A DNA stretch of 64,000 nucleotides. It comes from Gemmatimonadota bacterium. GTDB lineage: Bacteria; JAAXHH01. The stretch's first letter is position 1. Each line of letters starts with the position of its first letter. A model generated the notes under the pieces. It was given only the letters and a program-made list of their open reading frames with translations. It did no database searches and had not been told where the DNA came from. The translations under genes were made by a program, and so were the position numbers. The stretch spans positions 1-64,000 of the forward strand of contig VXRC01000039.1 of the NCBI GenBank assembly GCA_009838645.1. Reading direction: 5' to 3'. This document shows positions 8,726 through 64,000 of this stretch, piece after piece.

Positions 8726-9375
8726 TCCAGATCGCTCCATCCATCCTGTCGGCGGATTTCACCCGCCTGGCCGATGAGGTCCGTACCGTGGAGCGCGCGG
8801 GCGCGGACCGGATCCATATCGACGTCATGGACGGACGGTTCGTCCCGAACATCTCCATGGGCCCCTTCATCGTCGAGGCCATCGACTCGCTGACGGAACT
8901 GCCCCTGGAAGCCCACCTGATGATCGAGGAACCGGACCGGTACATCGACGCCTTCATGGAAGCCGGAGCCGACGTGATCATCGTGCACCAGGAGAATACG
9001 GCCCACCTGCACCGCGTGGTGCAGTCCGTACGGGAGCGGGGCAAACAGGCCGGCGTGGCCCTGAACCCGGCGACACCCGCCCAGGTTCTCGACGGGATCA
9101 TCGACGATCTCGACCTCGTCCTGGTCATGTCCGTCAACCCGGGTTTCTCAGGCCAGCGGTTCATCCCATCCGTCCTCCCGAAGATCCGCGAGATCCGAAA
9201 GACCCTGGCGGACCGGGAGATCGCGTGCGACCTGGAGGTGGACGGCGGCGTGAATGCCGATACCGCGCCGACCGCCGCGTCCGCGGGCGCGAACGTCCTG
9301 GTGGCCGCCACGGCCGTGTTCAAGCATCCGGACGGCGCCGCCGAAGGCATCCGAACGCTGCGCGGCCGGGACTGA
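8722..9375 (+). CDS. rpe: Ribulose-phosphate 3-epimerase
   Basis: Interconverts ribulose-5-phosphate and xylulose-5-phosphate. It is a 217-residue TIM barrel with [10 protein letters not shown] at the N-terminus and the metal ligands in [12 protein letters not shown] and EAHLMI. Further marks are [14 protein letters not shown] and [11 protein letters not shown]. The ATG at 8722 overlaps the gnd stop and has GGGGGAGGG just upstream; the longer in-frame reading further upstream was rejected because it runs into gnd coding sequence and lacks homology to the family. It ends the plus-strand run, facing the MATE gene. Confidence 0.95.
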
Positions 9376-9455
9376 CCTCCGGGATTCGGACCGCGACGTC
9401 GACCGCGGTACTGGCCTGCGCCCCCGGACACCGCATCGCCCTCAGAACACCGCCC

Positions 9456-10841
9456 TCAGACCACTGCCCTTTTCCAGGTCCCCTTGAAGAAGCGCCTGAG
9501 CGTGAGCAGGCCCTGCAGCACCGCCGCGGCGAGCCAGGCGATCCAGATGCCTGTAACGTCCAGTCCAAGCGGGAAGGCGAGGACGTAGGAGAACACGAGC
9601 ATGATGCCCCACTGGGAGAAGAGCGTGTAGTACAGCGATGGACGGGTCTCGCCGCCGCCGGCCAGCACGCCGCTGGCCACGATGGACAGCGCGGAAAAGA
9701 CCTGGGCGATGGCGAAGAAGCGCAGCATGACCGAACTGATGCCCAGGACCGTCTCGTCCGTCGTGAATACGGCCGCGATCCCCTGGGCGAAAATCCAGAT
9801 CAAGAACGAGCCGGCCCCGATCACGATCATGCAGAGCAGGATCGTCTGCCCGCCGTACTGCCCGGCCGACCGGACCTGCCGGCCACCCAGCCGCTGCCCC
9901 ACCAGGGAGGTCGCCGCGACCGAGAAGGCCAGGGCGGGCATAATCGCGAAGAGACGTATCTGGAAACCCACGGTCAGCGCCGCTATGGCGGCCGTGGGAC
10001 GGCTTACGCCCGATATGACGCGGTACAGGAGCACGCGCGCGCCGTTGCGGAAGAAGCCGGACGCGCCGGAGGGCAGGCCGATGTCGAGCATGCGGGACAT
10101 GATGGTCCAGTCCGGTTTGATGCGCCAGTTCCTCGAGAGACGCACCTGGCCGTGGCCCCGGACCAGGATCGCCAGCCCGATGACACATCCCGCCAGCCGG
10201 GAGATGATCATGCCCACGGCCGCGCCGGCGACGCCCAGCGCGGGCACTACCCAGGCGCCGAAGATAAACGCGTAGGAGGTCACGCATTTCACGATGATGA
10301 CGATTACGGAGATCTTCAGCGGCGTGCGGGTGTCGCCCACGCCGCCGAAGATGGCGCTCATCACGTAGTTGAGAATCATGAAGACCATGCCGGCGAAGTA
10401 GAGCCTCAGGAAGAGCATGCCGTGGGTAATGACCTCTTCCGGGGCGCCGAGCAGGACCAGCGCGGGCCGCGTGAGCACGATACTGACGGCGGCAAGACCC
10501 AGGGCCAGGTAGGTGCCCATCAGGATCGCCTGCTGGCCGGTCCGGCTCACGTCGCCGTGCCTGCCCGCCCCGTAGTACTGGGCCACCAGCGTCCGCGTCC
10601 CCCCGGTGATCGAAATGGCCATGACCATGACGATGAACACGATCTGCCGGCTCATTCCGATGGCGGAGATCGCCGCGGGACCCAGGAATCCCACGAAGTA
10701 GATGTCTACGAGACCTTCTGTGGCGTCGATCAGCGAAGCGACAACGACGGGCCAGGCAATGGCCCAGACGTGACGGAGGACCTGGGAAGGCGGGACCTCG
10801 TTGTCAGCCGGTTTCGGGGAATCGGCGGTATGGTCGGGCAT
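9456..10841 (-). CDS. MATE family multidrug/metabolite exporter
   Basis: A 461-residue inner-membrane antiporter with twelve hydrophobic segments in two related halves. Family marks include IDATEGLVDIYFVGFLGPAA in the first half, GGTRTLVAQYYGAG after it, and the second-half equivalent ATSLVGQRLGGRQ. The ATG at 10841 was chosen because its product starts about 30 residues before the first helix, as is normal; an upstream TTG reading exists but has no good ribosome site. It is transcribed away from the LivK-like lipoprotein gene and converges on rpe. Substrate unknown. Confidence 0.9.
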   Translation of the reverse strand: MPDHTADSPKPADNEVPPSQVLRHVWAIAWPVVVASLIDATEGLVDIYFVGFLGPAAISAIGMSRQIVFIVMVMAISITGGTRTLVAQYYGAGRHGDVSRTGQQAILMGTYLALGLAAVSIVLTRPALVLLGAPEEVITHGMLFLRLYFAGMVFMILNYVMSAIFGGVGDTRTPLKISVIVIIVKCVTSYAFIFGAWVVPALGVAGAAVGMIISRLAGCVIGLAILVRGHGQVRLSRNWRIKPDWTIMSRMLDIGLPSGASGFFRNGARVLLYRVISGVSRPTAAIAALTVGFQIRLFAIMPALAFSVAATSLVGQRLGGRQVRSAGQYGGQTILLCMIVIGAGSFLIWIFAQGIAAVFTTDETVLGISSVMLRFFAIAQVFSALSIVASGVLAGGGETRPSLYYTLFSQWGIMLVFSYVLAFPLGLDVTGIWIAWLAAAVLQGLLTLRRFFKGTWKRAVV

Positions 10842-19169: not shown

Positions 19170-20965
19170 TCGTCGCCGAAGATGTATCCTTCAGCTACCA
19201 TCTCCCGTCGGGGAACGAGGTTCCGACGCTGAAGGGCTTGTCCCTGGAGATCAGCGATTCCGGAAGTCTGGCCGTGATCGGACCCAACGGTTCGGGCAAG
19301 AGCACGCTCGCCCGTTGCCTGAACGGATTGATCGTGCCCCGGTCCGGCCGGATCCTGGTGGACGGCCTGGACACGGCGGATCCGGAGAACAAGTGGCCGG
19401 TCCATCAACGGGCCGGCATGATATTCCAGAACCCGGACAATCAACTGGTCTCCACCACGGTGGAACGGGAAGTGGCCTTTGGACTGGAAAACATCGGCCT
19501 GCCTTCCCCGGAGATCCACGACCGCGTCGCGTGGGCCCTCAACCGGTTCAACCTGGAAAAGTACCGCCATTACCCTCCCCACCGGCTTTCCGGCGGCGAG
19601 AAGCAGCGCCTGGCCATCGCCGCCGTGGCGTCCATGCGTCCCCGCTACCTCATTTGCGACGAGCCCACCTCGTCGCTGGACCCGGGAGACCGGCGGGACA
19701 TACTCGGCCTGCTCCTGTCGATCGTGGACGAATACCGGTTGAGCGTGGTCTTCATTACGCAGTCGCCCGAGGAAGCCGTCCGGATGGACCGCATCGCGCT
19801 GGTGGTGGACGGGGACGTCGCCGCCGAGGGAACGCCGGAGGAGGTATACCGGGAATCCGGCCGGCTCGCGGCGCACGGGCTCGACGCGCCGCTGGCCACA
19901 CGGCTGGCGGACGCCCTGCGCACGCGCGGCGTCGCGGTGCCGGCCGGCATCGTCCATCCGAAGCCCCTGGTACAGTGGCTGGCCGACAGGGCATCCGAGT
20001 CACCCAGCGCGCCCGAGTCGCCCAGAGCATCCGAGTCACCCAGCGCGCCCGTGTCACCAACCACGCCGCCCATTATCGCTTTCGACCGGGTGTGCCATAC
20101 CTACTCCCCCGGCACTTCCCTGGAGATCCCCGCCCTGCGCGATGTGAGCACCCTGGTGTTCCCCGGGGAATGCGTCGCGCTGACCGGGCCGAACGGTTCA
20201 GGAAAGTCCACGATGATTCAGCATCTCAATAGTTTGCTGAAGGCGGATTCGGGCACGGTTCGGGTCGAGGGGGCGGATGTATCGTCCCCGGAGACCGACT
20301 TGCGGAAGCTGCGTCAGAAAGTGGGACTGGTCTTTCAGTTCCCCGAGGCCCAGTTGTTCGAGGAAACCGTATTCGACGACGTGGCCTTCGGTCCCCGGCA
20401 AACGGGCGTTGCAGCATCGGAAATTACGGAAATGGTCAACCGGGCGCTCGAGCGGGTCGGCCTGGATCCCGGCCGTTTCTCACACCGGCATCCCCTGTCG
20501 CTGAGCGGCGGGGAAAAACGCCGGGCCGCAATTGCCGGGATCCTGGCCATGGAGCCTTCCGTCCTCGCACTCGACGAGCCTACGTCCGGACTCGATCCGC
20601 AGAGCGTACGGCAAGTAGAGGCGATTTTCAGGGGCTGCAAGGCAAAAGGGACGACCCTTTTCCTGATCACCCATGACATGGACCTGATCTCCCGCCTGGC
20701 GGACCGGATCCTGGTCATGGAAAACGGCGGCATCGCGGCGGATACCACGCCGGTCCACCTGTTCGGGCGGCAGCACGGCGTCGACGCGCGGCCGCGGGGA
20801 CGGCCCGGACGACCCGGGCTGTGCGACCTGCTGGCCGCCGTCTGCGAAGCCGGGATCCCCGTCGATCCCGCCTGTTTCGACCTGGAAGAAGCCGCGGACA
20901 TGATCCGCGCGTGCGTATTCGACGACAACCATCACGCCAGCCCCGGGGAAAGCCATCCATGCTAG
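19166..20965 (+). CDS. Fused two-headed ECF transporter ATPase (EcfA-EcfA)
   Basis: A 599-residue protein with two complete ABC ATPase domains, normally two separate subunits (EcfA1 and EcfA2 or a CbiO pair). Half 1 has Walker A GPNGSGKST (39-47), LSGGE (141-145) and Walker B YLICDEPTS (D165, E166). Its H-loop reads ITQSPEEA, with Gln199 in place of the catalytic His. Half 2 has Walker A GPNGSGKST, LSLSGGEKRR, VLALDEPTSGLD and a normal ITHDMD H-loop. The halves are joined by a Ser/Pro/Glu linker encoded by 18-bp tandem repeats. The GTG start overlaps the larC stop. No EcfT or S component adjoins; coupling with larBC suggests nickel uptake, but this is inference. Confidence 0.9.
   Translation: MIVAEDVSFSYHLPSGNEVPTLKGLSLEISDSGSLAVIGPNGSGKSTLARCLNGLIVPRSGRILVDGLDTADPENKWPVHQRAGMIFQNPDNQLVSTTVEREVAFGLENIGLPSPEIHDRVAWALNRFNLEKYRHYPPHRLSGGEKQRLAIAAVASMRPRYLICDEPTSSLDPGDRRDILGLLLSIVDEYRLSVVFITQSPEEAVRMDRIALVVDGDVAAEGTPEEVYRESGRLAAHGLDAPLATRLADALRTRGVAVPAGIVHPKPLVQWLADRASESPSAPESPRASESPSAPVSPTTPPIIAFDRVCHTYSPGTSLEIPALRDVSTLVFPGECVALTGPNGSGKSTMIQHLNSLLKADSGTVRVEGADVSSPETDLRKLRQKVGLVFQFPEAQLFEETVFDDVAFGPRQTGVAASEITEMVNRALERVGLDPGRFSHRHPLSLSGGEKRRAAIAGILAMEPSVLALDEPTSGLDPQSVRQVEAIFRGCKAKGTTLFLITHDMDLISRLADRILVMENGGIAADTTPVHLFGRQHGVDARPRGRPGRPGLCDLLAAVCEAGIPVDPACFDLEEAADMIRACVFDDNHHASPGESHPC
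19991..20062. repeat. 18-bp tandem repeat encoding the ECF ATPase linker
   Basis: Four 18-bp units, alternately beginning GCATCCGAG and GCGCCCGAG, encode a Ser-Pro-Ala-Glu linker between the two ATPase domains. Units 1 and 3 are identical, so the repeat has a 36-bp higher-order period. It keeps the reading frame. Confidence 0.85.
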
Positions 20966-21915: not shown

Positions 21916-22569
21916 CTACTGGCGCTTCAACTCCACGCGCCGGTTCTGCGCCAGGGCGCTCTCGTCGCTGCCCATGACCGCCTGCCGCTCTTCACCCAAA
22001 CTGACGGTTTCGATGCGGTCTTCCGCCACGCCGGCATTCACGAGGTACGCCTTGACCGCCTGTGCGCGCCGTTCACCCAGCGCCAGGTTGTATTCGATCG
22101 TGCCCCGTACATCGGTGTGGCCCTCGACCACCACCCTGTCTTCGGGCTGGTATTCTTGCAGCTTGCGGACGTTTTCGTCCATGACCGAACGCTGGTCCTC
22201 CCGGACGTCCGACCGGTCGTAATTGAAGTAGATGGTGGCCAGGGACATCATCTCCTGGTGCAGGGCTTCGGCCTCGGCGGCCCTTCGGGCTTCCTCTTCG
22301 GCCATGCGCCGGGCTTCCGCCTCGACCGCCAGACGGGCTTCCTCCTCGGCTATGCGCCGGGCTTCCGCCTCGGCCGCCAGGCGGGCTTCCTCTTCAGCTT
22401 GTACTGCCCTGATCGAATCCGCGATCGCCTGTTGACGCGCCGCCTCCATCGCGGCCAGTTCCTCCGCGGAAGGTCCCCGGGTAACGGCGCAGCAGGCGCC
22501 CATCCACACGGGCGCGGCAACCAGCACACAGAGCGCCAGGGCCGATGCCGTATTGCTCCATCGCTTCAT
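21916..22569 (-). CDS. Pal-like OmpA-domain lipoprotein, diverged second copy
   Basis: A 217-residue protein: signal sequence ending near WMGACCA, an Ala/Glu/Arg helical region (residues about 36-108) and an OmpA-type peptidoglycan-binding domain (about 113-217). The domain has IYFNYDRSDV, EGHTDVRGTIEYN and NRRVELK. The canonical Pal motif GHCDERGT is changed to GHTDVRGT, so this looks like the diverged paralogue of its upstream neighbour. The helix is made of EEEARLAAEAEARR-type units resembling the TolA stalk. The ATG at 22569 has AAAGGAG about 6 bp upstream. It has its own strong promoter and terminator, so it can be expressed apart from the rest of the tol genes. Confidence 0.9.
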   Translation of the reverse strand: MKRWSNTASALALCVLVAAPVWMGACCAVTRGPSAEELAAMEAARQQAIADSIRAVQAEEEARLAAEAEARRIAEEEARLAVEAEARRMAEEEARRAAEAEALHQEMMSLATIYFNYDRSDVREDQRSVMDENVRKLQEYQPEDRVVVEGHTDVRGTIEYNLALGERRAQAVKAYLVNAGVAEDRIETVSLGEERQAVMGSDESALAQNRRVELKRQ

Positions 22570-22836: not shown

Positions 22837-23478
22837 TTACTTGCGCTTCAACTCGGCGCGCCGGTTCTGCGACCAGGCGCTTTCGTCGCCGCCCATGACC
22901 GCCGGCTGCTCTTCACCGTAACTTACGGTCTCGATGCGGCCATCCTCCACGCCGGCATCCGTGAGGTACGTCTTGACCGCCTGGGCACGCTGCTCTCCCA
23001 GCGCCAGGTTGTATTCGATCGTACCCCGTTCATCGCAGTGGCCCTCGACCACCACCATGTCTTCGGGCTGGTACTCCCGCAATTTGCGGGCGTTCTCGTC
23101 CAGGGCCGAACGCTGGTCTTCCCGGATGTTCGACATGTCGTAATCGAAGTAGATGGTGGACAGGGACATCATCTCCTGGTGCCGGGCTTCGGCAGCCCTG
23201 CGGGCTTCCTCTTCGGCCGCGAGACGGGCTGCTTCCTCGGCCGCGAGACGGGCTTCTTCCTCGGCCATGCGCCGGGCTTCTTCCTCGGCCGCGAGACGGG
23301 CTTCCTCTTCAGCGCGTACCGCTCTGAGTGAATCCGCTATGGCCTGTTGACGCGCGGCTTCCATCGCGGCCAGTTCCTCCGCGGAAGGGCCCCTGGCACA
23401 AGCGGCACCCATCCACGCGGGAGCGGTGACCATCACACAGAGCGCCAGGATCGAATACGTGCTACGCCATCTTTTCAT
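22837..23478 (-). CDS. pal: Peptidoglycan-associated lipoprotein Pal, with TolA-like helix
   Basis: Pal anchors the outer membrane to peptidoglycan and receives TolB in the Tol system. The 213-residue precursor has a lipobox-like GAAC with Cys28 and a helical stretch of EEEARxAA units (about 55-100). Its OmpA domain carries the canonical Pal motif EGHCDERGTIEYN and QNRRAELK. E. coli Pal has no such long charged helix, so the anchor here is extended. The ATG at 23478 has AAAGGAG upstream. It is about 70% similar by eye to the next gene, showing tandem duplication. It is separated from cpoB by 165 bp. Confidence 0.93.
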   Translation of the reverse strand: MKRWRSTYSILALCVMVTAPAWMGAACARGPSAEELAAMEAARQQAIADSLRAVRAEEEARLAAEEEARRMAEEEARLAAEEAARLAAEEEARRAAEARHQEMMSLSTIYFDYDMSNIREDQRSALDENARKLREYQPEDMVVVEGHCDERGTIEYNLALGEQRAQAVKTYLTDAGVEDGRIETVSYGEEQPAVMGGDESAWSQNRRAELKRK

Positions 23479-29910: not shown

Positions 29911-32900
29911 CTAGAAATCGGCTCCGATCGTAAAGAAGAACTGGGTGTCGTTCAGCGCATTCCTCAGCCGGTACGAACGCGTGCCCGGGAACTCGGATTC
30001 AAGCCCACGGGGAACGTTGGCCAGGTTTTCGTTGTTGTACCATGCAGGCCGCCTTCCCAGGTCGAACTGGCGGGCGATATCGAACTTCAGGATCAGGAAG
30101 CCGACACGCGAGCGCATGCCGATGCCGTAGGCCACCGCGAGCGGCCCGCCCGACAGTTCTTCCATCGTGCGCGGCCCCAGGCCGTTGTCCCGCACCAGGT
30201 TGCCGTCGACGAATTGGCCTACGTTGGGATAGCCGGCGTACTGGTTGGCCTGGGTGGAACTGGTGGTCTGGTCCCAGGCGGCGCCCGCGTCCACGAACAG
30301 CGAACCACGGATCTGCTGGAAGGCCAGCGGCAGCGGCCAGCCGAAGGCGAGGACCTCGATCAGGGGGAACCGAAACTCGGCGTTGACCAGCGCGACTTTG
30401 CTCCCCCAGACGGACCAGTAATCCGCCCCGCGGAAGTTGAAAGGACCGCCGAATGGATACAGTTCCTGGTCCCGCCCGTCGCTGCTGAGTCCGTACAGGC
30501 GGAAGGCGAAGGCGTAACGCTGCAGGACGTTGTAGTAGGCGCGGTAGTCGACGAAGACCCGCGTGAACTGCAGCTCACCGAACGTCGGCGTCACTTCGAC
30601 ACGGCCCCGGGCGCCGGCGATCGGGCCGGTCAACCCGTACAGCGTGTGATCCGTGACCAGGGCGGCGGTGGGCTGGATGAAGTTGACGCTTCCCAGGCTT
30701 CCCCGCCTCGTACGCCGAATGCCGAAGTAATTGAAACTGACGTCCACCAGTTCACGGGAACGGTTGACGCCCTGGACCCCCAGTTCGAACCGGTTGAACT
30801 TGCTGAAAGGACGGCTCAGGTAGAACTGGACGCCGCGGTTTATCTGGGTCGTCACCTGGGAAACCCAGGGACTCTGGTAGCCGCGGAACAGGTCGTAGCT
30901 GTACTGGAATGCCGCCACGCTCCAGTTGACGCGCCGTGTCAGATTGGTGTACTGAACCAGCAGGTTCGCGTCCGTCAGGGATCCGAAAACGTTGGCGCCG
31001 ACGAGTATCTTGTGGTTGTTCAATATGTCGCTGAAGGAAAGGACGGAACTGCCCACGAGTCCGACGTGCGTGGAGTACCCGGCATTCCCCCCCAGGTAGT
31101 CCAATCCGAATTTGGGGGAGTATTTCCGCTTCGTGAACGTACCGTCGGTCCAGGCGGTCGTATCCGGCAACTCGCCCGCCGGACCGATACCTCCGGCGAT
31201 GGGCCCGAAGGGGAACTGCGGCGTCTCCAGAAGGCCGGAACCCGTTGACGGTTCGGGCATCTCTCCGGGCGCGGCCGACTCACTGACGGACTCCGCGGCG
31301 GACGTCGTGTCCGGCGGCGCGGTAAGCACGGTCTGGATCGTGGTTACCTTTTCCCGTTCCGGGGTCCCGGACGGTGGTCCCGCCTCGGATGCGGTGTCCG
31401 GCGCAGGGGCCGGCGTGGCGTCCTCCGTCGCTGCCGGCGAAGATCCTTCCGCGTCCCCGGAGACGGTTTCTTCCGATGTTCCTTCCTCGTCCCCGGAGGC
31501 GGTTTCTTCCGAAGATCCTTCCGCGTCCCCGGAGGCGAGGGGTTCATCCGGTGGTTCGGTTCTCAGGGGCGGCGCCAGTTGCTGCGCATCGGGCGACGCA
31601 CCGGGCGTCGCCGCCTTTTCGTGGTCGTAGGGTTCCTTCATCAACGACACCGGGTCGCTGATGGCAAACAGGTCGAATCCCCCCCAGGAAAGGGCGGAGA
31701 AGACCATGCGGTCCGACTTTTGCGCCCAGCTGATGGCGGGTCCGGCGGCCGTTACGTTGGTCACACCGGTCAGTACGTTGGTAATCTGGTAGGTCTCGCC
31801 GTTCTCCATGTCCCGGATGAATATGTTGGACACGCCGGTGCGATTGGAAATGAACGCGATTTTGCTGCCGTCCGCCGACCACTGCGGCGAAATGCTCTTG
31901 CCGATCTGGTCCGGGATCTTTTCGACCTCTCCCGTTTCCAGGTCATACAGCGCCAGCTGCTGGTATCCGAAGGTGAGCGTCCGGAAATTGGTCACGTCGC
32001 CCCGGTCCGTGGAAAAGGCGATCGTCTTGCCGTCCGGCGACCACACGGGGTCCCGGTCCGTGTACCGGTCCCGGGTAAGGGCCTTCAGGTTCCCGCCCGC
32101 GGCATCCACGACGTACAGGTCGGACTGCCCTCCCTGGAGACCGACGAAGACCAGCTTTTCACCGTCCGGCGACCAGCTCGGCGACGTGGCGCCGTCGAGA
32201 TTGACCCTGATGCGCCGGATCACCTTCTTCCTTCTGACGTCCATGATATACAGGGCGTCCCGCGCCCCCACCTTGGCCGGGAAGGCGATGTACTGCTCAT
32301 CGGGCGACCAGGAAATAGACGTGGAAAAGAACCGGAGGGACTCGAAATCGGCCGAGCGCTCGCCTTCGACCAGCTTGGAAATGACCTCGCCGTTGATGGC
32401 GGAGGCCAGGTAGATATCGTTGTACAGGCTTCGGTTGGAAATGAAGACCAGCTTGTCGCCCCGCGGTGAAATCGCCGGGGCGAGGTGCAGGCCCGCCCTG
32501 GATTCCCGGACGTCGGTCAGTTGCCGGGCGAAGGCCTGCGGCTTTTCGTAGTCCTCGATCTGCGGCAGGTAGGTCTTGCGCACATGCTCGTTCCACTCGT
32601 CGGACAGCTTCTCGATGTCCTTGCCGATGGACGAGCGGAAGGCTTCGTTCACGTTTCGCATGCGGGCCGTCTTGCGGAGTATCTCGCCGATCTTCCGATC
32701 TCCGTACCGGTCGCCGATGTAGGCGAACAGCGCCTGGCCGAAACGGTAGACGCCGAAACTATAGTCCATGGCGGGGATGGACGGCGGCAGATAGCCCTGC
32801 AGCGCCGCATCGCGCAGCCACATGTGGGTATAGGCGTCGATGCGGCCCAGGGACAGGTATTCGGCCATGCCCTCCATGAACCACAGCGGGGCGACGAAGG

Positions 32901-44111: not shown

Positions 44112-44183
44112 GGCAGACCAGGCAGACCAGGCGGACCAGGCAGACCGGGCAGACCAGGCGGATCGGACGGACCAGCAGGACCG
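44112..44183. repeat. Intergenic 9-bp minisatellite between sulfatase and proline dehydrogenase
   Basis: Eight tandem 9-bp units with consensus GGCAGACCA occupy almost the whole gap between the sulfatase stop (44185) and the PRODH start (44091). Copies diverge towards 44183. It is non-coding on the minus strand unless read through. Confidence 0.9.
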
Positions 44184-44184
44184 C

Positions 44185-45798
44185 TTACGCCGTGAAGGGA
44201 TCGCGCCCGAATCCGGGGCGGCGCGCATAGGTCCACGCGACCCGGCTCACGTCCTCGTTGGACATGCGCCAGTCCAGCAGTCTCACGCGCAGGTCCCGGA
44301 CCGCGTCAGCGTAACGCGGATCTTCGGCCACGTTACGTAGTTCGCCGGGATCCCGTGCCAGGTCGAAGAGCACGTCCGGCATGCCGTTGAAGTGCCAGTA
44401 CTTGAACCGGTCGTTCCGCACCATCCATCCCCGGCATTTCTCGGGCGGGATGCCGAGTTTCTTCGGCGTCCAGTAGAACCGGAAATCCCAGTCCGCGAAG
44501 ACCGCTTCGCGCCAGTCGGCCGGGCGTTCGCCCCGCAGCAGGGGAACGAGGGACCGGCCCTGCAGGGCGGGCGGCATGCCCGGTGCGCCCGGTGCGCTGT
44601 GTCCGCCCGGTGCGCCCGGTGCGCCCGCTCCGCCCGGTGCGCCCGGTGCGTTGGGTCCGCCGGCACCGCCATGACCATCCGTTCCGCCAATTCCACAGAC
44701 TTCCAGGCAGGTCGGCAGGACGTCCAGGGACTCGACGAACTCGTTCATCGTCCTCCCGCGCGTGGCGTCCGCGCAGGGCCGGGGATCGCGGACGATGAAG
44801 GGCACGTTGTACGCCTCGTCGTAGAAGAGCTCCTTCTCGAACATCCAGTGGTCGCCCACGTATTCGCCGTGATCGGACGTGAAGACGATCAGCGTGTCCT
44901 CCCAGAGACCCCGGTCCTTCATGAAACCGAACAGCCTGCCCAGGTGGTCGTCGATCTCCGTAATCAACCCGTAGTAGGTCGCCCTTCGCTGCCGCCACAC
45001 GTCTTCGTCGTCGTAGGCCACGCCGCCCCTTTCGATCCGGTAGGGGACGTGGAAGGGATGGGGATGCTCCAATTCCTCCGGAGACCGGTTCGGCGCGGGG
45101 GAATCGGCGGGGTCGTACAGCGCGTTGTAAGGATAGGGCGCCACGATGGGCAGGTGGGGCTTGAAGTAGGAGAGGTGCAGAAACCAAGGCGAATCCCCGG
45201 CGTCGTCCATGAAGGCCATGGCCCGGTCCGTCATGAAGGCGGTATCGCTGTCCTCCCGCCTGAATCGCGTGGGGTAGGCGGAACGATCCCGGTCGGCATT
45301 TGCGGGCATTTCCACCGCGAAAGGATCGGCGACGACGTCGGCGGCGTACCCCTTGCTTCTTAGATGGGCCAGCCAGCCCTCCCCCCTGGATTCGTTCAGC
45401 TCCCAGGTTTCCAGCCCGGCCAGGGCCGCGCGGCGGATCCCCTGTTCAGGCTGCGCCCCGGGATCGCCGAAGGGATCGGGAGTGTAGTGCGTCTTGCCGC
45501 AGAGCGCCGCCCGGTAACCCGCCTCGCCGAAGAAGTGGCCCATGGTCTTCTCGTCCACGGGCAGGGGCACTTCGTTCCAGGGAGACCGGTTGGCGTGGGG
45601 ATACCGGCCGGTGTAAAAGCACATGCGGCTGGGACCGCAGACCGCCGACTGCACGTAGGCCCGCCGGAAGAGGACGCCTTCAGAAGCGAGATGGTCGAGG
45701 TGGGGCGTCCGGACCACGGGGTGGCCGACGCCGGACATACAGTCCGCCCGCATCTGGTCGGTCATGATGAAGAGTACGTTCGGTCGACCGGCGGGCAT
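44185..45798 (-). CDS. Cys-type sulfatase without signal peptide
   Basis: A 537-residue alkaline-phosphatase-fold sulfatase. D14-Q15 in FIMTDQ supplies metal ligands. The formylglycine motif is C54-G-P-S-R58 inside SAVCGPSRMCFYTGRYP. K102/H104 lie in GKTHY, H215 in KPHLP, and D309-H310 in FTSDHGEYVGDH. Residues about 371-408 are a collagen-like Gly-Ala-Pro insert encoded by 9-bp repeats. The ATG at 45798 has GGAGA 7 bp upstream and gives the usual start RPNVLFIMTDQ; no signal peptide is present, so it may be cytoplasmic. Substrate unknown; it needs a Cys-to-formylglycine maturase from elsewhere. Confidence 0.93.
   Translation of the reverse strand: MPAGRPNVLFIMTDQMRADCMSGVGHPVVRTPHLDHLASEGVLFRRAYVQSAVCGPSRMCFYTGRYPHANRSPWNEVPLPVDEKTMGHFFGEAGYRAALCGKTHYTPDPFGDPGAQPEQGIRRAALAGLETWELNESRGEGWLAHLRSKGYAADVVADPFAVEMPANADRDRSAYPTRFRREDSDTAFMTDRAMAFMDDAGDSPWFLHLSYFKPHLPIVAPYPYNALYDPADSPAPNRSPEELEHPHPFHVPYRIERGGVAYDDEDVWRQRRATYYGLITEIDDHLGRLFGFMKDRGLWEDTLIVFTSDHGEYVGDHWMFEKELFYDEAYNVPFIVRDPRPCADATRGRTMNEFVESLDVLPTCLEVCGIGGTDGHGGAGGPNAPGAPGGAGAPGAPGGHSAPGAPGMPPALQGRSLVPLLRGERPADWREAVFADWDFRFYWTPKKLGIPPEKCRGWMVRNDRFKYWHFNGMPDVLFDLARDPGELRNVAEDPRYADAVRDLRVRLLDWRMSNEDVSRVAWTYARRPGFGRDPFTA
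44578..44649. repeat. 9-bp minisatellite inside the sulfatase gene
   Basis: Eight tandem 9-bp units, consensus GCCCGGTGC with two variant copies, encode the Gly-Ala-Pro stretch of the sulfatase. The position is a surface loop between the catalytic region and the C-terminal subdomain. Confidence 0.9.
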
Positions 45799-51908: not shown

Positions 51909-53984
51909 CTATACTTCGTCCAGCAGGTTCTCCACGATGTAGTCCCTGCGCTCGGGCGTGTTCTTGCCCATGTAGAAGGTGAGGGTTTCCGGAATGCTGT
52001 GGATGGAACGGACGTTGACCTTCACGAGCCGCATGTCGGAACCGATGAACTGGCCGAATTCGCCGGGCGAGATCTCGCCCAGCCCCTTGAACCGGGTCAC
52101 TTCCGCCCCGCGAATCCGGTCCAGGGCCGCGTTGCGCTCCTTCTCGCTGTAGCAGTAGACGGTTTCCTTCGTGTTGCGCACCCGGAAGAGCGGCGTTTCG
52201 AGGATGTGGACGTGGCCCGCGAGCACCATCTCCTCGAAGTAGCTCAGGAAGAAGGTCATCAGGAGATTGCGGATATGGTAGCCGTCGTAATCGGCGTCGG
52301 TCGCGATGATCACCTTGTTGAACCGCAGGTTCGATATCCCGTCCTCGATGCCGAGGGCCATCATGAGATTGTAGAGCTCCTCGTTCTTGTAGATGGCCGC
52401 CCGCGTGCGGGAGAAGACGTTCAGCGGCACGCCCTTGAGTCCGAAGATCGCCTGGGTCAGCGGGTCCCGCGCCGAGACCATGGAACCGGCGGCCGAAGGC
52501 CCCTCGGTGATGAAGATCGAGGAATCCTCTCCGAACTTCGCGTGATCGAAGTGGTACTTGCAGTCCTTGAAATTGGGGATCTTGATGGCGATACGCCGGG
52601 CCGCTTCGCGGGCCTCCTTCTTGACCGCATTCAGTTCCTTCCGCAGACGCTCGTTCTGGGTGATCTTCTCCTGGATCCGCTGGGCGGACTCCTGGTTTTT
52701 GTGCAGGAAGTCCACCACGGCACTGCGGATCTCCGAGACGAGCCAGCCCCGGATATCGGTATTGCCCAGCTTGTTCTTGGTCTGGGATTCGAAAATGGGT
52801 TCCTTCAGCTTGATGGCGATGGCGCCCGCAATGGACTCGCGGACGTCCACTCCGCCGTAGCTTTTCTTGAAGTATTCGTTGACGCCCTTTAGAATGCCCT
52901 CGCGGAACGCGCTCTGGTGGGACCCGCCGTCCGCGGTGTACTGGCCGTTCACGAAGGAGAAGAGCGTCTCGCCGTAGTTGGTGGTGTGCGTGAAGGAAAA
53001 CTCGATGTACTGGCTTTTGTGGTACGAGGGCTCGTAGAGGACGTTCTCGCCCACCTCGGCCTTGAGGAAGTCCAGCAGTCCGTACCTGGAAACGAATCGC
53101 TTCTTGTTGAAGACCAGGCGAAGGCCGCTGTTCAGGCAGGCGTAGTTCCACATGCGGCTTTCGACGTAGTCCGGCTGGAAAGCGTATTCCCCGAAGATCT
53201 CCTCGTCGGGCAGGAATTCGACATAGGTGCCGTCCGGCTCGTCCGCGGCGCCCTCGTTCTGCCCGAGGAGTTGCCCCCGCTCGTACACCGCCTCCGCATA
53301 GCGCCCGTTCCGGTAGGCCACGACGCGGAAATCGACGGAGAGGGCGTTGACCGCCTTGGCGCCCACGCCGTTCAGTCCCACGCTGAACTGAAAGACCTCG
53401 TCGTTATACTTGGCGCCCGTGTTGATGATCGAAGTGCACTCCACGACCTTGCCGAGGGGAATCCCGCGGCCGAAGTCGCGGACGCGGACCCGGTCGTCTT
53501 CGATGGACACGTCGATCTGCCGGCCGTGGCCCATGATAAACTCGTCCACGGCGTTGTCGATCACTTCCTTGAGGAGGACGTAGATGCCGTCTTCCGGATC
53601 GCTGCCGTTCCCGAGCCGGCCGATATACATGCCTGTACGGAGCCGGATGTGTTCCAGCGACGAGAGGGTCTTGACCTTGCTTTCGTCGTAGACGGCGGCG
53701 TCCGTAGCGCCCTCTGCGGCCGCGGCGACTGGAGATCCGTTGCCGTCGACGGACCGTTCGGCCGGAGAACCGTTGTCGTCGGGCCGTGCGGACGGAGATC
53801 CGTTTCTTTCATCCGGTCGCGCGCCGTTTTCCGATTCGACCGGTTTTCGGTTGGTCGCGGCACCGCTGCCGCGCGAACCGTTCCCGTTGCCGGACCGGCC
53901 GTTCGCCCCTTCTTCCCGCGGCGTGAGCAGGTCGAGCTGGGTGTTCCGGTCCTCTCCGCTTCTCGAACCGTTCCGGGTCGCCAT
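51909..53984 (-). CDS. parE: Type IIA topoisomerase subunit B (ParE-like) with Asn/Gly/Ser-rich N-terminal extension
   Basis: A 691-residue ATPase subunit. Residues 1 to about 98 are a low-complexity extension rich in NGSP and GNGS units, not part of the family. The ATPase has KEVIDNAVDEF (E139, N143, D147), the GVGAKAVNALS loop and the QTK loop in SQTKNKLG (400-402). The Toprim domain has E493 in ITEGPSAAGS, where the common EGDSA reads EGPSA, and D562/D564 in TDADYDGYH. The ATG at 53984 has AAAGGA upstream. It is 5 bp from parC. The overall type resembles the Bacteroidetes topoisomerase IV pair. Confidence 0.92.
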   Translation of the reverse strand: MATRNGSRSGEDRNTQLDLLTPREEGANGRSGNGNGSRGSGAATNRKPVESENGARPDERNGSPSARPDDNGSPAERSVDGNGSPVAAAAEGATDAAVYDESKVKTLSSLEHIRLRTGMYIGRLGNGSDPEDGIYVLLKEVIDNAVDEFIMGHGRQIDVSIEDDRVRVRDFGRGIPLGKVVECTSIINTGAKYNDEVFQFSVGLNGVGAKAVNALSVDFRVVAYRNGRYAEAVYERGQLLGQNEGAADEPDGTYVEFLPDEEIFGEYAFQPDYVESRMWNYACLNSGLRLVFNKKRFVSRYGLLDFLKAEVGENVLYEPSYHKSQYIEFSFTHTTNYGETLFSFVNGQYTADGGSHQSAFREGILKGVNEYFKKSYGGVDVRESIAGAIAIKLKEPIFESQTKNKLGNTDIRGWLVSEIRSAVVDFLHKNQESAQRIQEKITQNERLRKELNAVKKEAREAARRIAIKIPNFKDCKYHFDHAKFGEDSSIFITEGPSAAGSMVSARDPLTQAIFGLKGVPLNVFSRTRAAIYKNEELYNLMMALGIEDGISNLRFNKVIIATDADYDGYHIRNLLMTFFLSYFEEMVLAGHVHILETPLFRVRNTKETVYCYSEKERNAALDRIRGAEVTRFKGLGEISPGEFGQFIGSDMRLVKVNVRSIHSIPETLTFYMGKNTPERRDYIVENLLDEV

Positions 53985-58977: not shown

Positions 58978-61900
58978 TCATCGCAGATCCTTCAACACCG
59001 TGTATCGCCGCGCTTCTTCTCGCGATCCGGCCAAGACCAGGTAAGCGGTATCCTCGCTGACTCCGCGGGCGGCCACCTCGTGACCCCGCATGAGCTTCAG
59101 GTGGCCTCCGTCGGCGCCCCAACTGTCCATCCGGACGCCGCTCCCCGGCGAAACGAGTACGAATGTCCGCCCGGTGCGCGGGTTGGCGGCGGCGGCCCAG
59201 TGTCCGCCATCCTGTTCGACATACCACGGGCGCCGCTTCCGCTCGCCGTCCGCCGAGAACAGAACGGTGTCGGCCATCTCGCCGTCGGGCTTCAGGAACA
59301 GATGCCATCCGCCCCTCAGCCGCCGGTGCGCGGCGCTCTCGTTCAGCAGCCTCCATACCAGTTTGATTACCGGACCGCCCCCCAGGGTCAGAGTATCGAG
59401 TTCCAGGGTCAGGCCGCGGGACGCCTCATTGGACAACGCCACCCGCTGGCGCAGGCCCGTCCATTCGAGACCCCGGGCGCGATAGGAGACCGGCTCCGCG
59501 GCGAACGTCTCGTCCTCGAGAGACGCCGTCCAGGACATGCGGTCCGATACGATCTCGGGCTGCAGCCCGCCATACCAGGGGTAGCTCCATCCGAAGGCTT
59601 CGGGTTGGGGAAAGGCGGTAGCAAGGTGGTTGCATTCGCCGCCGGCATCCCGGATGGCGCTCACGGATCCGAGGAAGGAGGGAGCCACGTCGATTTCGAG
59701 CCGCTGGTTTCGAATGGTATACACCCTGTGACCCCCGGATTCGACCTCATCGACTTCCACGGCCGATCCGTCCGTCATCCGGACGAGGGGCAGCTCGACC
59801 TCCGCGCCGCGCTCCCCGCTGTCCAGCACCATGCGGCCGGTGTAGACGCCGGGCGGCCGCGACGTGGAAAGGCGCACCGAACCATCGAAGGGTTGCCGCC
59901 AGTCGATCTCGGAGAACGAAACCCACGGCGGGTCGCACCGCCACCCGTCGGGCATGACGAAGGAAACGGTCCCGCTGGCCTTACGGGACTTCCACTGCGC
60001 AATCCGGAAACGGAGGTCGGTCTCGTCTCCGCTTACCACGGCTACGGGCGGATCGGTCGTCGCCTCGAATTCGTCCAGGATCCGCGGGGCGGACTCGCCT
60101 TCTCCGACCGGTTCCCCCCGGATACGCCGCCACAGCCGGCGCACGCCTTGCCAGCCGCCGTCCCCGACGCGCAGTCTCAGGGCGCCGAAGGAGACGCGGG
60201 ACTGGGGCGCGCAGGTCGTCTCCACGCTCACCGACTGGAATTCAAAACCGTTCCATTCGACCTCGTCCAGGCCGTCGGGCCACAGAACCCCCATCGTTCC
60301 GTGGGGCATTTCGTAAGCGCCCCACGATTCCGCGTAGCTGTCGCCCATCTTGAAATCGTAATCGTCCGGCGCGGACCGATCGCTGCAACGGGCCTTGAGG
60401 ATTCCTTCCCGAAGCGGCAGCGTCAGCGCCGCCTGATCCGCGCCACCGTTCGTGACGAACTGGTAGAGGTGGGAGGTGCGGGGGTCGAAGCCGGTATTCT
60501 CCAGCGTGTGCTCCACGGTGATGACCGGCCCGGCGTTCAACCGGATGATCCGGCTGAAGACGAGGCCGGGGGCCCTTCGGGGTGCATAGGTTGCCGTGAG
60601 GACCACGCCGTTCCCATCCCCTTCGGCTTTCAGCTTGAAGTCCGACTCGCTGTATTCGCTGGGCCACTTCGGCGGTATGGGACGCCCGCCTTCCGTTCCC
60701 AGATGCCTCCCAGTGGCCCGGTCGCTGATCTTCAGTTGGCCGCCCTCGGCCTCCAGGTTTGCCCGGAAGATCTCGTTCTCGAACCGTATCGCGCCGTCCT
60801 GGTGGTACAACATTCCGCCCGGCGCCAAAGCGAAGACGGCGTGTTTCGCATCCGCCAGGTCGACCGGTCCGCCCTCCCGTTCCAGTCGGCCCGACAGGGT
60901 AAGTCCGAACACGCCCGGGCGGTCCGCCTCGAGGACGATTTCGAATCCTCCGTATCCCCGGGCGGGCACCGCGACGGATCGTGCGGTCCGGTCCACCAAG
61001 AGGCCGTCCGATGCCGTGATGCGGACCTGCGCTTCGACGTCTTCGGCCAACTGGCTGTGCAGGTTTACGCGCACCGGACGCGGCGCGCCGGGAGCCAGGG
61101 TGATCTCCCCGGGATCGATGGAAACAGACATCTCGACCCGCGGCCGGATACCGGTGGCGAGGTCGATGAGAAGATCGTCCCAACGTATGCTGGTGCGCAC
61201 CCTCGGCGCAGTCTTTTTAACGTCCACGGTTTCGGCTTTGGCCGACACACTCACCGGCGCTTCCAGGGAGATATTCTCGCCGGGTCCCAGCGTCTTCCGG
61301 CAGTGGTAGTCGATGGACAGGTCGCCCGTCTCTTTCGCCGTTAACGCGACGGAGGCGGGAACGTCCTTCCGGTTCTCCAGTTTCCACCGAAGGACCGTCT
61401 GCCCGCCCCGCACCGGCTCGATGTCGTCCACCGTCGCCCAGGCGGACAAATCCGCCGTCTCCACCGCGGTCACGTGCCGGGCTTCGCGGTCCACCCGGAC
61501 CGTCAGTCCCTCCCGGTCCCCGGCGGACCCGGCTTTATCGGATGGCGGCGTCCGTTCGGCAGATGCGGCTACATCCGCGCCAGACCCGGTACCGCCGACA
61601 GAGGCCGCCGTCCCCCCGGCCGTAAACCGGTAGGTAAAAACCCGCAGCCCTTCCCAGGTTTCGTCGTCGGGATACTGGTCGATCCGCCGCTCCAGGGATT
61701 CGTACCAGTCGTGCCGGTCGAAGAAGTACCGCGTACAGGGCATCTCGAGGATGGCGGGCATGTAGTTGCGCATTATCGGCCAGCCTCCGGCGTCCCAGAA
61801 GAAGCCCGTCCGCTTGTAAGGCGCCATCGCCTTCACGTTCCCCGACCAGGTATCGAGGTCGAGATGGTACTTCTTGTCTTCGATGGCCTTCTCCACCGAG

Positions 61901-62214
61901 CGGACGAGCAGCCGCCGGCCGATGCTCCTGCCCTGGAAGCGCGGGGAGACGTTCAACAGCGCGAGGTAGAGGGCCTCGCCGTCGTCCTTGTCGTATACCA
62001 GGGAACAGTACCCGCCGATCTTCTCCCCTTCGGCCCAGACGAAGACCGCGGTGTATTCCTCCTTTTCGTGCCAGTCCCGGATGTCCCGCGCCGTCGTGGG
62101 CACGCCGCTGTTCCAGGTGCCGGGCCATTCGCCGTCGCTTTCGTTCCACATTTCGGCGATCGCGACGGCATCCCGCACGGGGTCGATCAACCTCAGATTG
62201 GCTTGTTCCGCCAT
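58978..62214 (-). CDS. GNAT acetyltransferase fused to duplicated Ig-like/mutarotase-like beta-sandwich modules
   Basis: A 1078-residue protein without signal peptide. Residues 1-165 are a GNAT N-acetyltransferase, with the acetyl-CoA loop in LYLALLNVSPRFQGRSIGRR; the loop QGRSIG spans 94-99. A Gly/Ala/Ser linker (about 199-236) follows. The remaining 840 residues contain no enzyme motif I can name. They look like two related pairs: an Ig-like strand domain (about 365-450 and 715-812, both with a PGV(F/Y) turn) and a larger sugar-mutarotase/glycoside-hydrolase-like beta-sandwich (about 470-700 and 817-1078). The ATG at 62214 has GGAG 7 bp upstream. It lies 28 bp after the sulfatase gene in the same run. 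The beta-sandwich assignments are by eye. Confidence 0.72.
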   Translation of the reverse strand: MAEQANLRLIDPVRDAVAIAEMWNESDGEWPGTWNSGVPTTARDIRDWHEKEEYTAVFVWAEGEKIGGYCSLVYDKDDGEALYLALLNVSPRFQGRSIGRRLLVRSVEKAIEDKKYHLDLDTWSGNVKAMAPYKRTGFFWDAGGWPIMRNYMPAILEMPCTRYFFDRHDWYESLERRIDQYPDDETWEGLRVFTYRFTAGGTAASVGGTGSGADVAASAERTPPSDKAGSAGDREGLTVRVDREARHVTAVETADLSAWATVDDIEPVRGGQTVLRWKLENRKDVPASVALTAKETGDLSIDYHCRKTLGPGENISLEAPVSVSAKAETVDVKKTAPRVRTSIRWDDLLIDLATGIRPRVEMSVSIDPGEITLAPGAPRPVRVNLHSQLAEDVEAQVRITASDGLLVDRTARSVAVPARGYGGFEIVLEADRPGVFGLTLSGRLEREGGPVDLADAKHAVFALAPGGMLYHQDGAIRFENEIFRANLEAEGGQLKISDRATGRHLGTEGGRPIPPKWPSEYSESDFKLKAEGDGNGVVLTATYAPRRAPGLVFSRIIRLNAGPVITVEHTLENTGFDPRTSHLYQFVTNGGADQAALTLPLREGILKARCSDRSAPDDYDFKMGDSYAESWGAYEMPHGTMGVLWPDGLDEVEWNGFEFQSVSVETTCAPQSRVSFGALRLRVGDGGWQGVRRLWRRIRGEPVGEGESAPRILDEFEATTDPPVAVVSGDETDLRFRIAQWKSRKASGTVSFVMPDGWRCDPPWVSFSEIDWRQPFDGSVRLSTSRPPGVYTGRMVLDSGERGAEVELPLVRMTDGSAVEVDEVESGGHRVYTIRNQRLEIDVAPSFLGSVSAIRDAGGECNHLATAFPQPEAFGWSYPWYGGLQPEIVSDRMSWTASLEDETFAAEPVSYRARGLEWTGLRQRVALSNEASRGLTLELDTLTLGGGPVIKLVWRLLNESAAHRRLRGGWHLFLKPDGEMADTVLFSADGERKRRPWYVEQDGGHWAAAANPRTGRTFVLVSPGSGVRMDSWGADGGHLKLMRGHEVAARGVSEDTAYLVLAGSREEARRYTVLKDLR

Positions 62215-62242: not shown

Positions 62243-63691
62243 CTACTCACCATCACAAGTTGTCCCGCCATGTTCCGGCCTACTGCGTCGATCAGGCGGG
62301 GAAACCACATGGTCGTGGGGGATCGCTCCGGCTTCGTTCACTTCATAGCCGAACTTCTCCAGGTAATGGCCGGCGGGAAGCAGTGCGTCGCCCCGCCGAT
62401 CCATCTCTTTCTGTAACTGGCCGTCCAGCCGGCGCTGCAGGTCGGCGTGTTCCTCTCGGCCAGCCAGGTTTGACAGCTGGCAGGGATCCTCCCGGTTGTC
62501 GTACAGCAGCCAGGGCCCGTCGAGATTGCGTACATAGGTGTGTCCGGCGCTCCGGATGCCCCGCCAGGGCTGGCCCCGGTATTCCGAGAAGGGCGCGATG
62601 CTCATGATATAGGCGGCATCGTTGCCCGTAAAGGCCTCGCCCCGCACCGCCGGGGCGTGGTCCAGGCCCTCGCAGGTATCGGGGACGGGGATGCCCGCCA
62701 GGCCGAGGAGCGTCGGCATGATGTCCACCACGTTGAAGGGGGTGCCGATCCGGGGTCCCGCATGGGCCCGGTCCGACTGGTCCCGGTCCGACTGGTCCGG
62801 GCAACGCATGACGAAGGGAACGCGGATGGACTCGTCCCAGGGGTGCTGCTTGCGCTGGCGGCCCTGGGACCCAAGCATGTCGCCGTGGTCCGAAGTATAT
62901 ACGAAAACTGTTTCGTCCATCAGTCCCTGTTCTTCGAGGACGCCGCCGAGCCGCGCCAACTGGTCGTCGAGGGCCGTGATATGTGCGTAATATCCCGCCA
63001 GGTCGGTCCGGGCAGGATCGGGACAGTTGGGACGCACCTCCACTTCCTCCGGCGGGTACATGTCGAGGTAGCGGCCGGGCACGGCGTCGTAGGGATTATG
63101 CGGCGGCCCCCACGACAGCACCAGCGCAAAGGGCCGGTCCTGCTTCCGATCCTGGCTCCGATCCCGTCTCCGGTCCCGTCCCCGGGTGCGCAGGTATTCG
63201 ATGGCCAGGGAAGTCTGCGCCTCCGCATCGTACCCGTTCCAGTACAGCGGCGCTTCCGAATCCCGGTAGTACAGGGAGTGCATGTAGTCGTGGGTGCAGT
63301 TGCCCACGGCCCAGAAATCGAACCCCTGCCTGCGGGGTCCGGGCGGCGTGAATCCGCCCCGGGACGGACCGTCGAGATGCCATTTCCCGATGTAGGCCGT
63401 GTCGTAGCCCGCCGCGCGCAGGACCGTGCCCAGGGTCGGTCGGTCCGTCGGAAGCCGCACGTCGTTCATGAACATGCCGGTCGTCAACGGATACTGTCCG
63501 GTCAGAAAAGCCGCCCGCCAGGGCGTGCAGACCGGGATGTTGGCGACCGCCAGGTCGAAGACGACGCCCTCGTCGGCCATGCGGTCCATGAACGGCGTCC
63601 GCACCTGGCAGCTGCCGCCGAAGCCGGTGCTGCACCATCGGTGCTGATCGCTAAACACGAAAACGATATTCCTGGCACGGTGCTTGGACAT
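62243..63691 (-). CDS. Cys-type sulfatase without signal peptide, CTPWR active site
   Basis: A 482-residue sulfatase. D15-Q16 lies in VFVFSDQHRW and the formylglycine motif is C55-T-P-W-R59 in NIPVCTPWRAAFLTGQYP. The usual Ser at the fourth position is Trp, but the CxPxR core for maturation is kept. K103/H105 are in GKWHLDG, H198 in GPPHNP and D268-H269 in YTSDHGDMLG. Two Arg/Asp/Gln-rich stretches (about 169-186 and 298-310) are coded by short tandem repeats. There is no signal peptide. It is transcribed with the GNAT fusion downstream and a DUF4202 gene upstream. Substrate unknown. Confidence 0.93.
   Translation of the reverse strand: MSKHRARNIVFVFSDQHRWCSTGFGGSCQVRTPFMDRMADEGVVFDLAVANIPVCTPWRAAFLTGQYPLTTGMFMNDVRLPTDRPTLGTVLRAAGYDTAYIGKWHLDGPSRGGFTPPGPRRQGFDFWAVGNCTHDYMHSLYYRDSEAPLYWNGYDAEAQTSLAIEYLRTRGRDRRRDRSQDRKQDRPFALVLSWGPPHNPYDAVPGRYLDMYPPEEVEVRPNCPDPARTDLAGYYAHITALDDQLARLGGVLEEQGLMDETVFVYTSDHGDMLGSQGRQRKQHPWDESIRVPFVMRCPDQSDRDQSDRAHAGPRIGTPFNVVDIMPTLLGLAGIPVPDTCEGLDHAPAVRGEAFTGNDAAYIMSIAPFSEYRGQPWRGIRSAGHTYVRNLDGPWLLYDNREDPCQLSNLAGREEHADLQRRLDGQLQKEMDRRGDALLPAGHYLEKFGYEVNEAGAIPHDHVVSPPDRRSRPEHGGTTCDGE
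62771..62800. repeat. 15-bp tandem repeat in the second sulfatase gene
   Basis: Two near-identical 15-bp units beginning GTCCGACTGGTCC encode a DQSDR-type repeat near residue 300. Confidence 0.8.
63140..63187. repeat. 12-bp tandem repeat in the second sulfatase gene
   Basis: Four degenerate 12-bp units (first two CTGCTTCCGATC and CTGGCTCCGATC) encode the Arg/Asp/Gln-rich loop near residues 169-186. Confidence 0.75.
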
Positions 63692-63735: not shown

Positions 63736-64000
63736 TTACGTGCGCCGGCCCGTCCGGGCGACCCGGACCGCCCGGTCCAGCAACGACTTCAACGCGGGAG
63801 TAAAGTCGATATCCCGCACCGCCTCCCGACCCGCGGAGGACATCTTCTTCCAGGTCTTCGCCAGGATTTCGACCAGTTTTTCTTCTCTGTGCTTCTTCGA
63901 AAACGCGGGCAGATAGTGCCGGAGAAACACCAGGCAGGCGACGTCCTCGAGGGCCTGCGCCTCGGGGTCCGACTTGAAGCGTTCTTTCCGGACGAGGGCC
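63736..64000 (-). CDS. DUF4202 family protein, C-terminal part (5' end outside the window)
   Basis: The last 88 codons of a leftward gene that enters from beyond base 64000. The visible part, with QALEDVACLVFLRHYLPAFS and the later KLVEILAKTWKKMSSAGREA, matches the C-terminal end of the DUF4202 family, including its LEDVACLVFL and KTWxKMS signatures. Family proteins are about 190-200 residues and of unknown biochemical role; the conserved charged residues suggest an enzyme. It ends 45 bp before the start of the second sulfatase and is probably in the same transcript. A TAA at 63736-63738 ends it. Confidence 0.85.
   Translation of the reverse strand, partial: ALVRKERFKSDPEAQALEDVACLVFLRHYLPAFSKKHREEKLVEILAKTWKKMSSAGREAVRDIDFTPALKSLLDRAVRVARTGRRT

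Follow-up and report, generated by a model that had tools for sequence, protein, structure and literature searches.

The locus and the N-terminal acetyltransferase

The window analysed here is the whole stretch of 64,000 nucleotides at positions 1 to 64,000 of contig VXRC01000039.1. It comes from a 3.8-Mb, 97%-complete genome, in which the gene described below is present in a single copy. The deposited metagenome-assembled genomes of its relatives are labelled Candidatus Latescibacterota or Gemmatimonadetes. The source bacterium is presumably sponge-associated, to judge by isolate names (IRC1, for example) and by what has been published on sponge Latescibacterota. On the minus strand of the window, an intact open reading frame with its ATG at 62214 and its stop codon at 58978 encodes a protein of 1,078 aa (Table 1). 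A GAGGAG Shine-Dalgarno sequence (62226-62221) is situated 6 nt 5' of the ATG, and the gene starts 28 bp past the stop codon of an upstream sulfatase gene. No signal peptide was evident in the fusion protein when its sequence was read by eye. Both the spacing and the lack of a signal peptide had been noted in an earlier sequence-only reading of this DNA.

Table 1. Features of the fusion gene and of the neighbouring sulfatase gene (window positions; residues of the encoded protein).
Feature	Residues	Position	Strand	Basis
Neighbouring sulfatase, 482 aa		62243..63691	-	PF00884 E 2.5e-53; CTPWR formylglycine motif, residues 55-59
Whole fusion gene, multidomain GNAT protein	1-1078	58978..62214	-	Shine-Dalgarno sequence, intact orthologues in genus
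GNAT acetyltransferase domain	1-150	61765..62214	-	PF00583 E 6.1e-12; invariants over 9 members
Acetyl-CoA pyrophosphate loop QGRSIG	94-99	61918..61935	-	Alignment of members
Bridge with FF-x2-HDWY motif	151-200	61615..61764	-	Conservation over 9 members
Variable low-complexity linker	201-231	61522..61614	-	Alignment, dN/dS
First Ig-like region	232-358	61141..61521	-	Weak FixG_C matches
Second Ig-like region	359-466	60817..61140	-	Weak HYDIN/CFA65 Ig matches
Probable supersandwich domain 1	467-705	60100..60816	-	YidC_periplas match; hhalign against shuffles
Third Ig-like domain, predicted NEW3-type	712-815	59770..60081	-	AlphaFold, Foldseek, homology to L020
Predicted galactose-mutarotase-type supersandwich domain 2	816-1078	58981..59769	-	AlphaFold model and Foldseek

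The domain order is best described as GNAT-bridge-Ig-Ig-supersandwich-Ig-supersandwich, with approximately 850 beta-rich residues following the linker. The earlier proposal of a cytoplasmic protein composed of GNAT, Ig-like and mutarotase-like parts is largely borne out, but it had overlooked the Ig region 232-358 and the bridge 151-200.

The presence of a GNAT domain, with its acetyl-CoA loop where it had been placed, was confirmed. The Pfam match extends over residues 21-138 (46.3 bits against a cut-off of 20.7), and the profile is matched by all nine family members. Residues N126, A129, Y133, G137 and F138, which form the usual GNAT motif, and also G99 are invariant across the Latescibacterota and Bacillota members of this set. 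In the R/Q-x-x-G-x-G/A loop, Q94 and G99 are present and the last Gly is invariant; according to the alignment, the first (middle) Gly is replaced in the window protein, where it is Ser, in the relative from genome G013, and in that from Cytobacillus, where it is Lys. The GNAT domain is apparently competent. Its nearest solved relative in a profile search of PDB chains is PaiA (PDB 1tiq), given in the NCBIfam listing as spermidine/spermine acetyltransferase. The fusion protein shares with GNAT N-acetyltransferases the fold (Pfam, PDB-chain profile search) and the N-A-Y-GF motif, but those listed are mostly 150-300 aa in length, whereas here the approximately 850 beta residues and a conserved 50-residue bridge are added.

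The bridge is conserved to the same degree as the GNAT domain, with 24% invariant columns over the nine members, Bacillota included. The linker that follows, which the earlier reading had supposed, is real: it is absent in the G013 and Cytobacillus proteins, missing or scrambled in relatives, and fast-evolving (dN/dS approximately 1.2 in the pair with L002).

Predicted folds of the beta-rich region

Nothing above the cut-off was obtained for the C-terminal region in the Pfam, NCBIfam and PDB profile searches. AlphaFold was run on residues 712-1078 alone with six close sequences, the divergent G013 and Cytobacillus proteins being left out, and the resulting model had a moderate mean pLDDT of 62.5; only one of the five models reached 62. 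The Ig-like part had a pLDDT of approximately 80-90; elsewhere some stretches reached 65-80, and residues 125-191 of the fragment fell below 50. A full-length model, also built from six close sequences, had a pLDDT of 32 and was not used. Compared with the PDB by Foldseek, the model of residues 712-1078 gave 111 matches at E <= 0.001. Leading among them were GH2 beta-galactosidases, the mutarotase-like Slr1438, GH36 alpha-galactosidases, an aldose 1-epimerase, YidC and GH38 mannosidase, all of which carry supersandwich domains. The E values of these mainly supersandwich matches were 1e-8 to 1e-5, extending to 1e-4 over the GH2, GH36, GH38 and aldose epimerase domains, and Ig-like domains were matched as well. 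The model being partial, modest TM-scores were to be expected, and they came to 0.28-0.39 by query.

A supersandwich fold of residues 816-1078 can thus be predicted with moderate confidence. The predicted fold is that of the galactose-mutarotase-type domains of GH2, GH36 and GH38 enzymes and aldose epimerases, but the fusion protein has no glycosidase catalytic domain and no significant sequence similarity to these proteins. For residues 712-815, the model supports a NEW3/Ig-like fold. Residues 722-805 match a protein from the same order (L020, genome G015) with a blastp E of 4e-5, and its corresponding region matches NEW3 (NPCBM_assoc, PF10633), a domain of glycosidases and similar proteins, with an E of 3e-9; the fusion family's own PF10633 score, however, is below the cut-off (three of nine members, best E 0.073).

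Catalytic mutarotase-like proteins (3k25, 3ty1) are among the Foldseek matches, and H863, E902, D977 and the run R992-K993-R994 are invariant in the C-terminal supersandwich. One or both supersandwich domains might accordingly be catalytic themselves (epimerase, mutarotase or lyase-like); the protein would then be bifunctional, a sugar enzyme that also performs a GNAT step. This seems improbable. Aldose_epim (PF01263) had no Pfam match in the beta array even at E 10, hhalign to the aldose epimerases of the phylum itself was not significant (P 0.1 and 0.84), and neither method revealed a catalytic mutarotase signature in the fusion protein.

In the middle of the protein, residues 232-358 have weak FixG_C Ig-like matches in eight of the nine members (best E 2.3e-4) and residues 359-466 weak HYDIN/CFA65 Ig matches in seven (best E 5e-4), all below the cut-off. 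The sole match of residues 467-705, equally below the cut-off, is to YidC_periplas (5/9 members, best E 0.012). When this region was aligned by hhalign with the YidC domains of the phylum, the score was 24.6, whereas none of 60 shuffles scored above 20.2 and the reversed sequence scored 13.9. The periplasmic domain of YidC has a supersandwich fold, and the weak match is therefore a lead to that fold rather than a proof of it; a supersandwich fold of residues 467-705 is probable, if weakly supported. YidC also matches residues 816-1078 structurally, but the fusion protein has a cytosolic GNAT context and no membrane insertase domain.

The sequence-only reading had likened two successive halves of the beta-rich region to the NEW3-type Ig domain and mutarotase-like supersandwich of glycoside hydrolases. 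AlphaFold and Foldseek support this for residues 712-815 and 816-1078, and the structure search of 712-1078 against the PDB returned GH2, GH36 and GH38 domains; for residues 466-705 the match remains weak. The same reading had taken the two halves (about 365-700 and 715-1078) for an internal duplication, and here it is not upheld. The profile-profile score of residues 365-715 against 715-1078 was 18.8, within the range of the shuffles (mean 16.3, maximum 29.4) and below that of the reversed half (25.8), and duplication at the sequence level was rejected as no better than these controls. A duplicated Ig-plus-supersandwich module is plausible at most as a repeated fold that is undetectable by sequence.

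Relatives and gene context

The fusion gene is found in 11 further genomes of the genus. In 10 of these it is full-length on one open frame and in one it is cut by a contig end; identity to the full-length relatives across the genus is 72-92%. A full-length relative with 45-47% identity is present in G013, which belongs to another genus within the family. A tblastn search of plasmids revealed one further relative, the 1,026-aa protein WP_233811912.1 of Cytobacillus spongiae CY-G, encoded on a 690-kb plasmid and annotated only as "GNAT family N-acetyltransferase". It is approximately 24% identical to the window protein and collinear with it over the full length (blastp E 1e-42 over residues 16-648), and hhalign gave P values of 4e-7 for the middle block and 4e-5 for the C-terminal block. 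It differs in having no linker and no sulfatase neighbour. No more relatives were found in viral contigs and phages, and among the best matches listed in a plasmid search with the GNAT domain only, no other protein spanned GNAT and bridge.

For all folded domains, dN/dS (Nei-Gojobori, two close pairs) stayed far below 1, pointing to purifying selection. Over the nine members, invariant columns make up 11-13% of the supersandwich regions versus 3-5% of Ig1 and Ig2, and the invariant supersandwich residues include W, H, E and D and an R-K-R run. They comprise E629, W631, W645, E658, W688 and R692 in the first supersandwich region and H863, E902, W918, D977 and R992-R994 in the second. The intact orthologues in many genomes and the dN/dS below 1 rule out a pseudogene or an assembly fusion. 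By these sequence comparisons, this is a real enzyme family under functional constraint. Intact relatives in the genus, in G013 and in the remote Cytobacillus indicate that the fusion is an old and stable architecture, which, being common to Latescibacterota and Bacillota, either predates the split of these lineages or moved between them whole. The GNAT part is thus not always a separate gene in the homologues; the fusion is kept from Latescibacterota to a Bacillota plasmid. A remnant copy was observed in genome G001 (L027:131-1450), where GNAT and bridge are retained to approximately residue 280, the beta array is lost and about 180 unrelated residues stand at the N-terminus.

Throughout the genus the fusion gene lies in a syntenic block of genes for sigma-r4, DUF4202, sulfatase, fusion protein, M24 peptidase, HMGL-like protein, M20 peptidase and acyl-CoA dehydrogenase, which also includes two downstream topoisomerase-like genes. 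By a guess that goes back to the earlier reading, and that is still no more than a guess, sulfatase and fusion protein would be a pathway unit: a sugar would lose its sulfate to the former and then be N-acetylated by the latter in the cytoplasm. The two genes are on the same strand with 28 bp between them and stay adjacent throughout the genus, both proteins are without an evident signal peptide, and the sulfatase has the formylglycine motif, with one formylglycine-generating-enzyme family gene in the genome. However, since the whole block is syntenic in the genus, the adjacency counts as one inherited event and not as independent evidence, and the approximately 29 sulfatase genes of the source genome make it weak evidence in any case.

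Outside the genus the two genes are decoupled. In G013 the fusion gene has a SpoU methylase gene downstream and a divergent PcRGLX-like gene upstream; no sulfatase orthologue of the 72% type is present, the best sulfatase being 43% identical. Conversely, in G014, another member of the order, the sulfatase is present (74%) and the fusion gene missing. In G001 the genes for sigma-r4, DUF4202 and sulfatase are still grouped, and the 787 bp downstream of the sulfatase contain no part of the fusion gene; the truncated GNAT remnant of this genome is on another contig. In Cytobacillus a GMP reductase gene adjoins the fusion gene and no sulfatase is nearby. Among the genomes compared, the pair is kept together only within one genus, and the decoupling nearly refutes the pathway unit, which we regard as unlikely. 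The sulfatase-fusion pairing looks accidental, and the two genes are probably not functionally tied.

Several further observations concern the sulfatase and its surroundings. G001 and G014 appear to hold even more sulfatases than the source genome. The DUF4202 and small sigma-70 region 4 genes are located upstream of the sulfatase (window 63736-64000 and beyond; L031:7737-8876), and G001, which is not of this genus, has all three genes together as well. Two sulfatase loops are expanded by in-frame tandem repeats with 12-bp and 15-bp units (window 63134-63185 and 62763-62798); close relatives differ in the length of these insertions, and most have none. Many tandem repeats of period 9 to 48, nearly all multiples of three, also occur elsewhere in the window (19987-20067, 22263-22395, 23201-23304, 31438-31537, 44112-44175, 44578-44661 and 53731-53804). 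This suggests repeat-driven growth of linkers in the coding sequence of this genome. Near the G013 homologue, the PcRGLX-like gene (exo-rhamnogalacturonan lyase type) and an alpha-L-fucosidase gene (L026:5644-7194 and 9325-10782) form a weak carbohydrate context.

Putative function and significance of the family

We tentatively favour the view that the protein acts as an acetyltransferase in the cytosol and that its beta modules serve to hold the acceptor, a glycan or an amino sugar. The GNAT domain, fused via the conserved bridge to the Ig-Ig-supersandwich-Ig-supersandwich array, would move the acetyl group from acetyl-CoA to an amine of the held acceptor. The two supersandwich domains would bind this acceptor, a carbohydrate or glycoconjugate, and the Ig-like domains would space and orient them; the neighbouring sulfatase would not be needed. 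We infer here the fold of the first supersandwich domain, the class of substrate and the cooperation of the domains. The supersandwich domains may bind carbohydrate because most of their fold relatives do, and because their 11-13% of invariant columns is maintained down to Bacillota. Against a sugar acceptor, no conserved carbohydrate gene context was found, the flanking genes in the genus being mostly housekeeping ones, and the nearest solved GNAT is PaiA. Supersandwich domains are also found in non-sugar proteins such as YidC.

The main alternative is that the GNAT domain acts on a non-sugar small molecule or a protein (polyamine, amino acid or antibiotic), the supersandwich domains being inert and the beta array serving as a scaffold on which the protein oligomerises or binds a partner. 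Besides PaiA and the housekeeping flanks, the Foldseek match to YidC, whose supersandwich is inert, is consistent with such a role. Relations among distant GNATs are, however, poor predictors of substrate, and the stronger conservation of the supersandwich regions compared with Ig1 and Ig2, together with their invariant polar and aromatic residues, suggests a binding site. We consider this alternative only slightly less likely than a sugar acceptor.

Eukaryotic O-GlcNAcase also has a C-terminal GNAT-like domain joined to a sugar-processing protein. There the domain is considered inactive and its partner is a GH84 catalytic barrel; no homology is claimed. In a literature search that took in a minor part of the subscription literature, no paper on the fusion of a GNAT with mutarotase or Ig-like domains was found; the earlier reading, too, knew of no such system. 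One paper on Latescibacterota from sponges makes no mention of a sulfatase or an acetyltransferase. Public databases already list members of the family, as ordinary GNAT proteins; the new part is the unusual conserved array of beta domains.

It is conceivable, and we put it forward guardedly, that the proteins of Latescibacterota and Bacillota constitute a family of glycan-directed cytosolic acetyltransferases, with supersandwich and Ig domains of the glycosidase type as their substrate-holding arms. If so, they would represent an undescribed way to build a sugar N-acetyltransferase. The family also provides a case in which accessory domains of glycosidases are apparently put to use in the absence of a glycosidase. 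If the substrate is not a sugar, the gain would be a modest one in annotation. Approximately 850 residues belong to no Pfam family, so that a description of the protein would add a new conserved family to those already named. Few bacterial enzymes are as numerous as the GNAT enzymes, the majority of which have no known substrate. With its GNAT stably joined to domains that hint at a sugar acceptor, this family offers an unusually direct handle for substrate finding.
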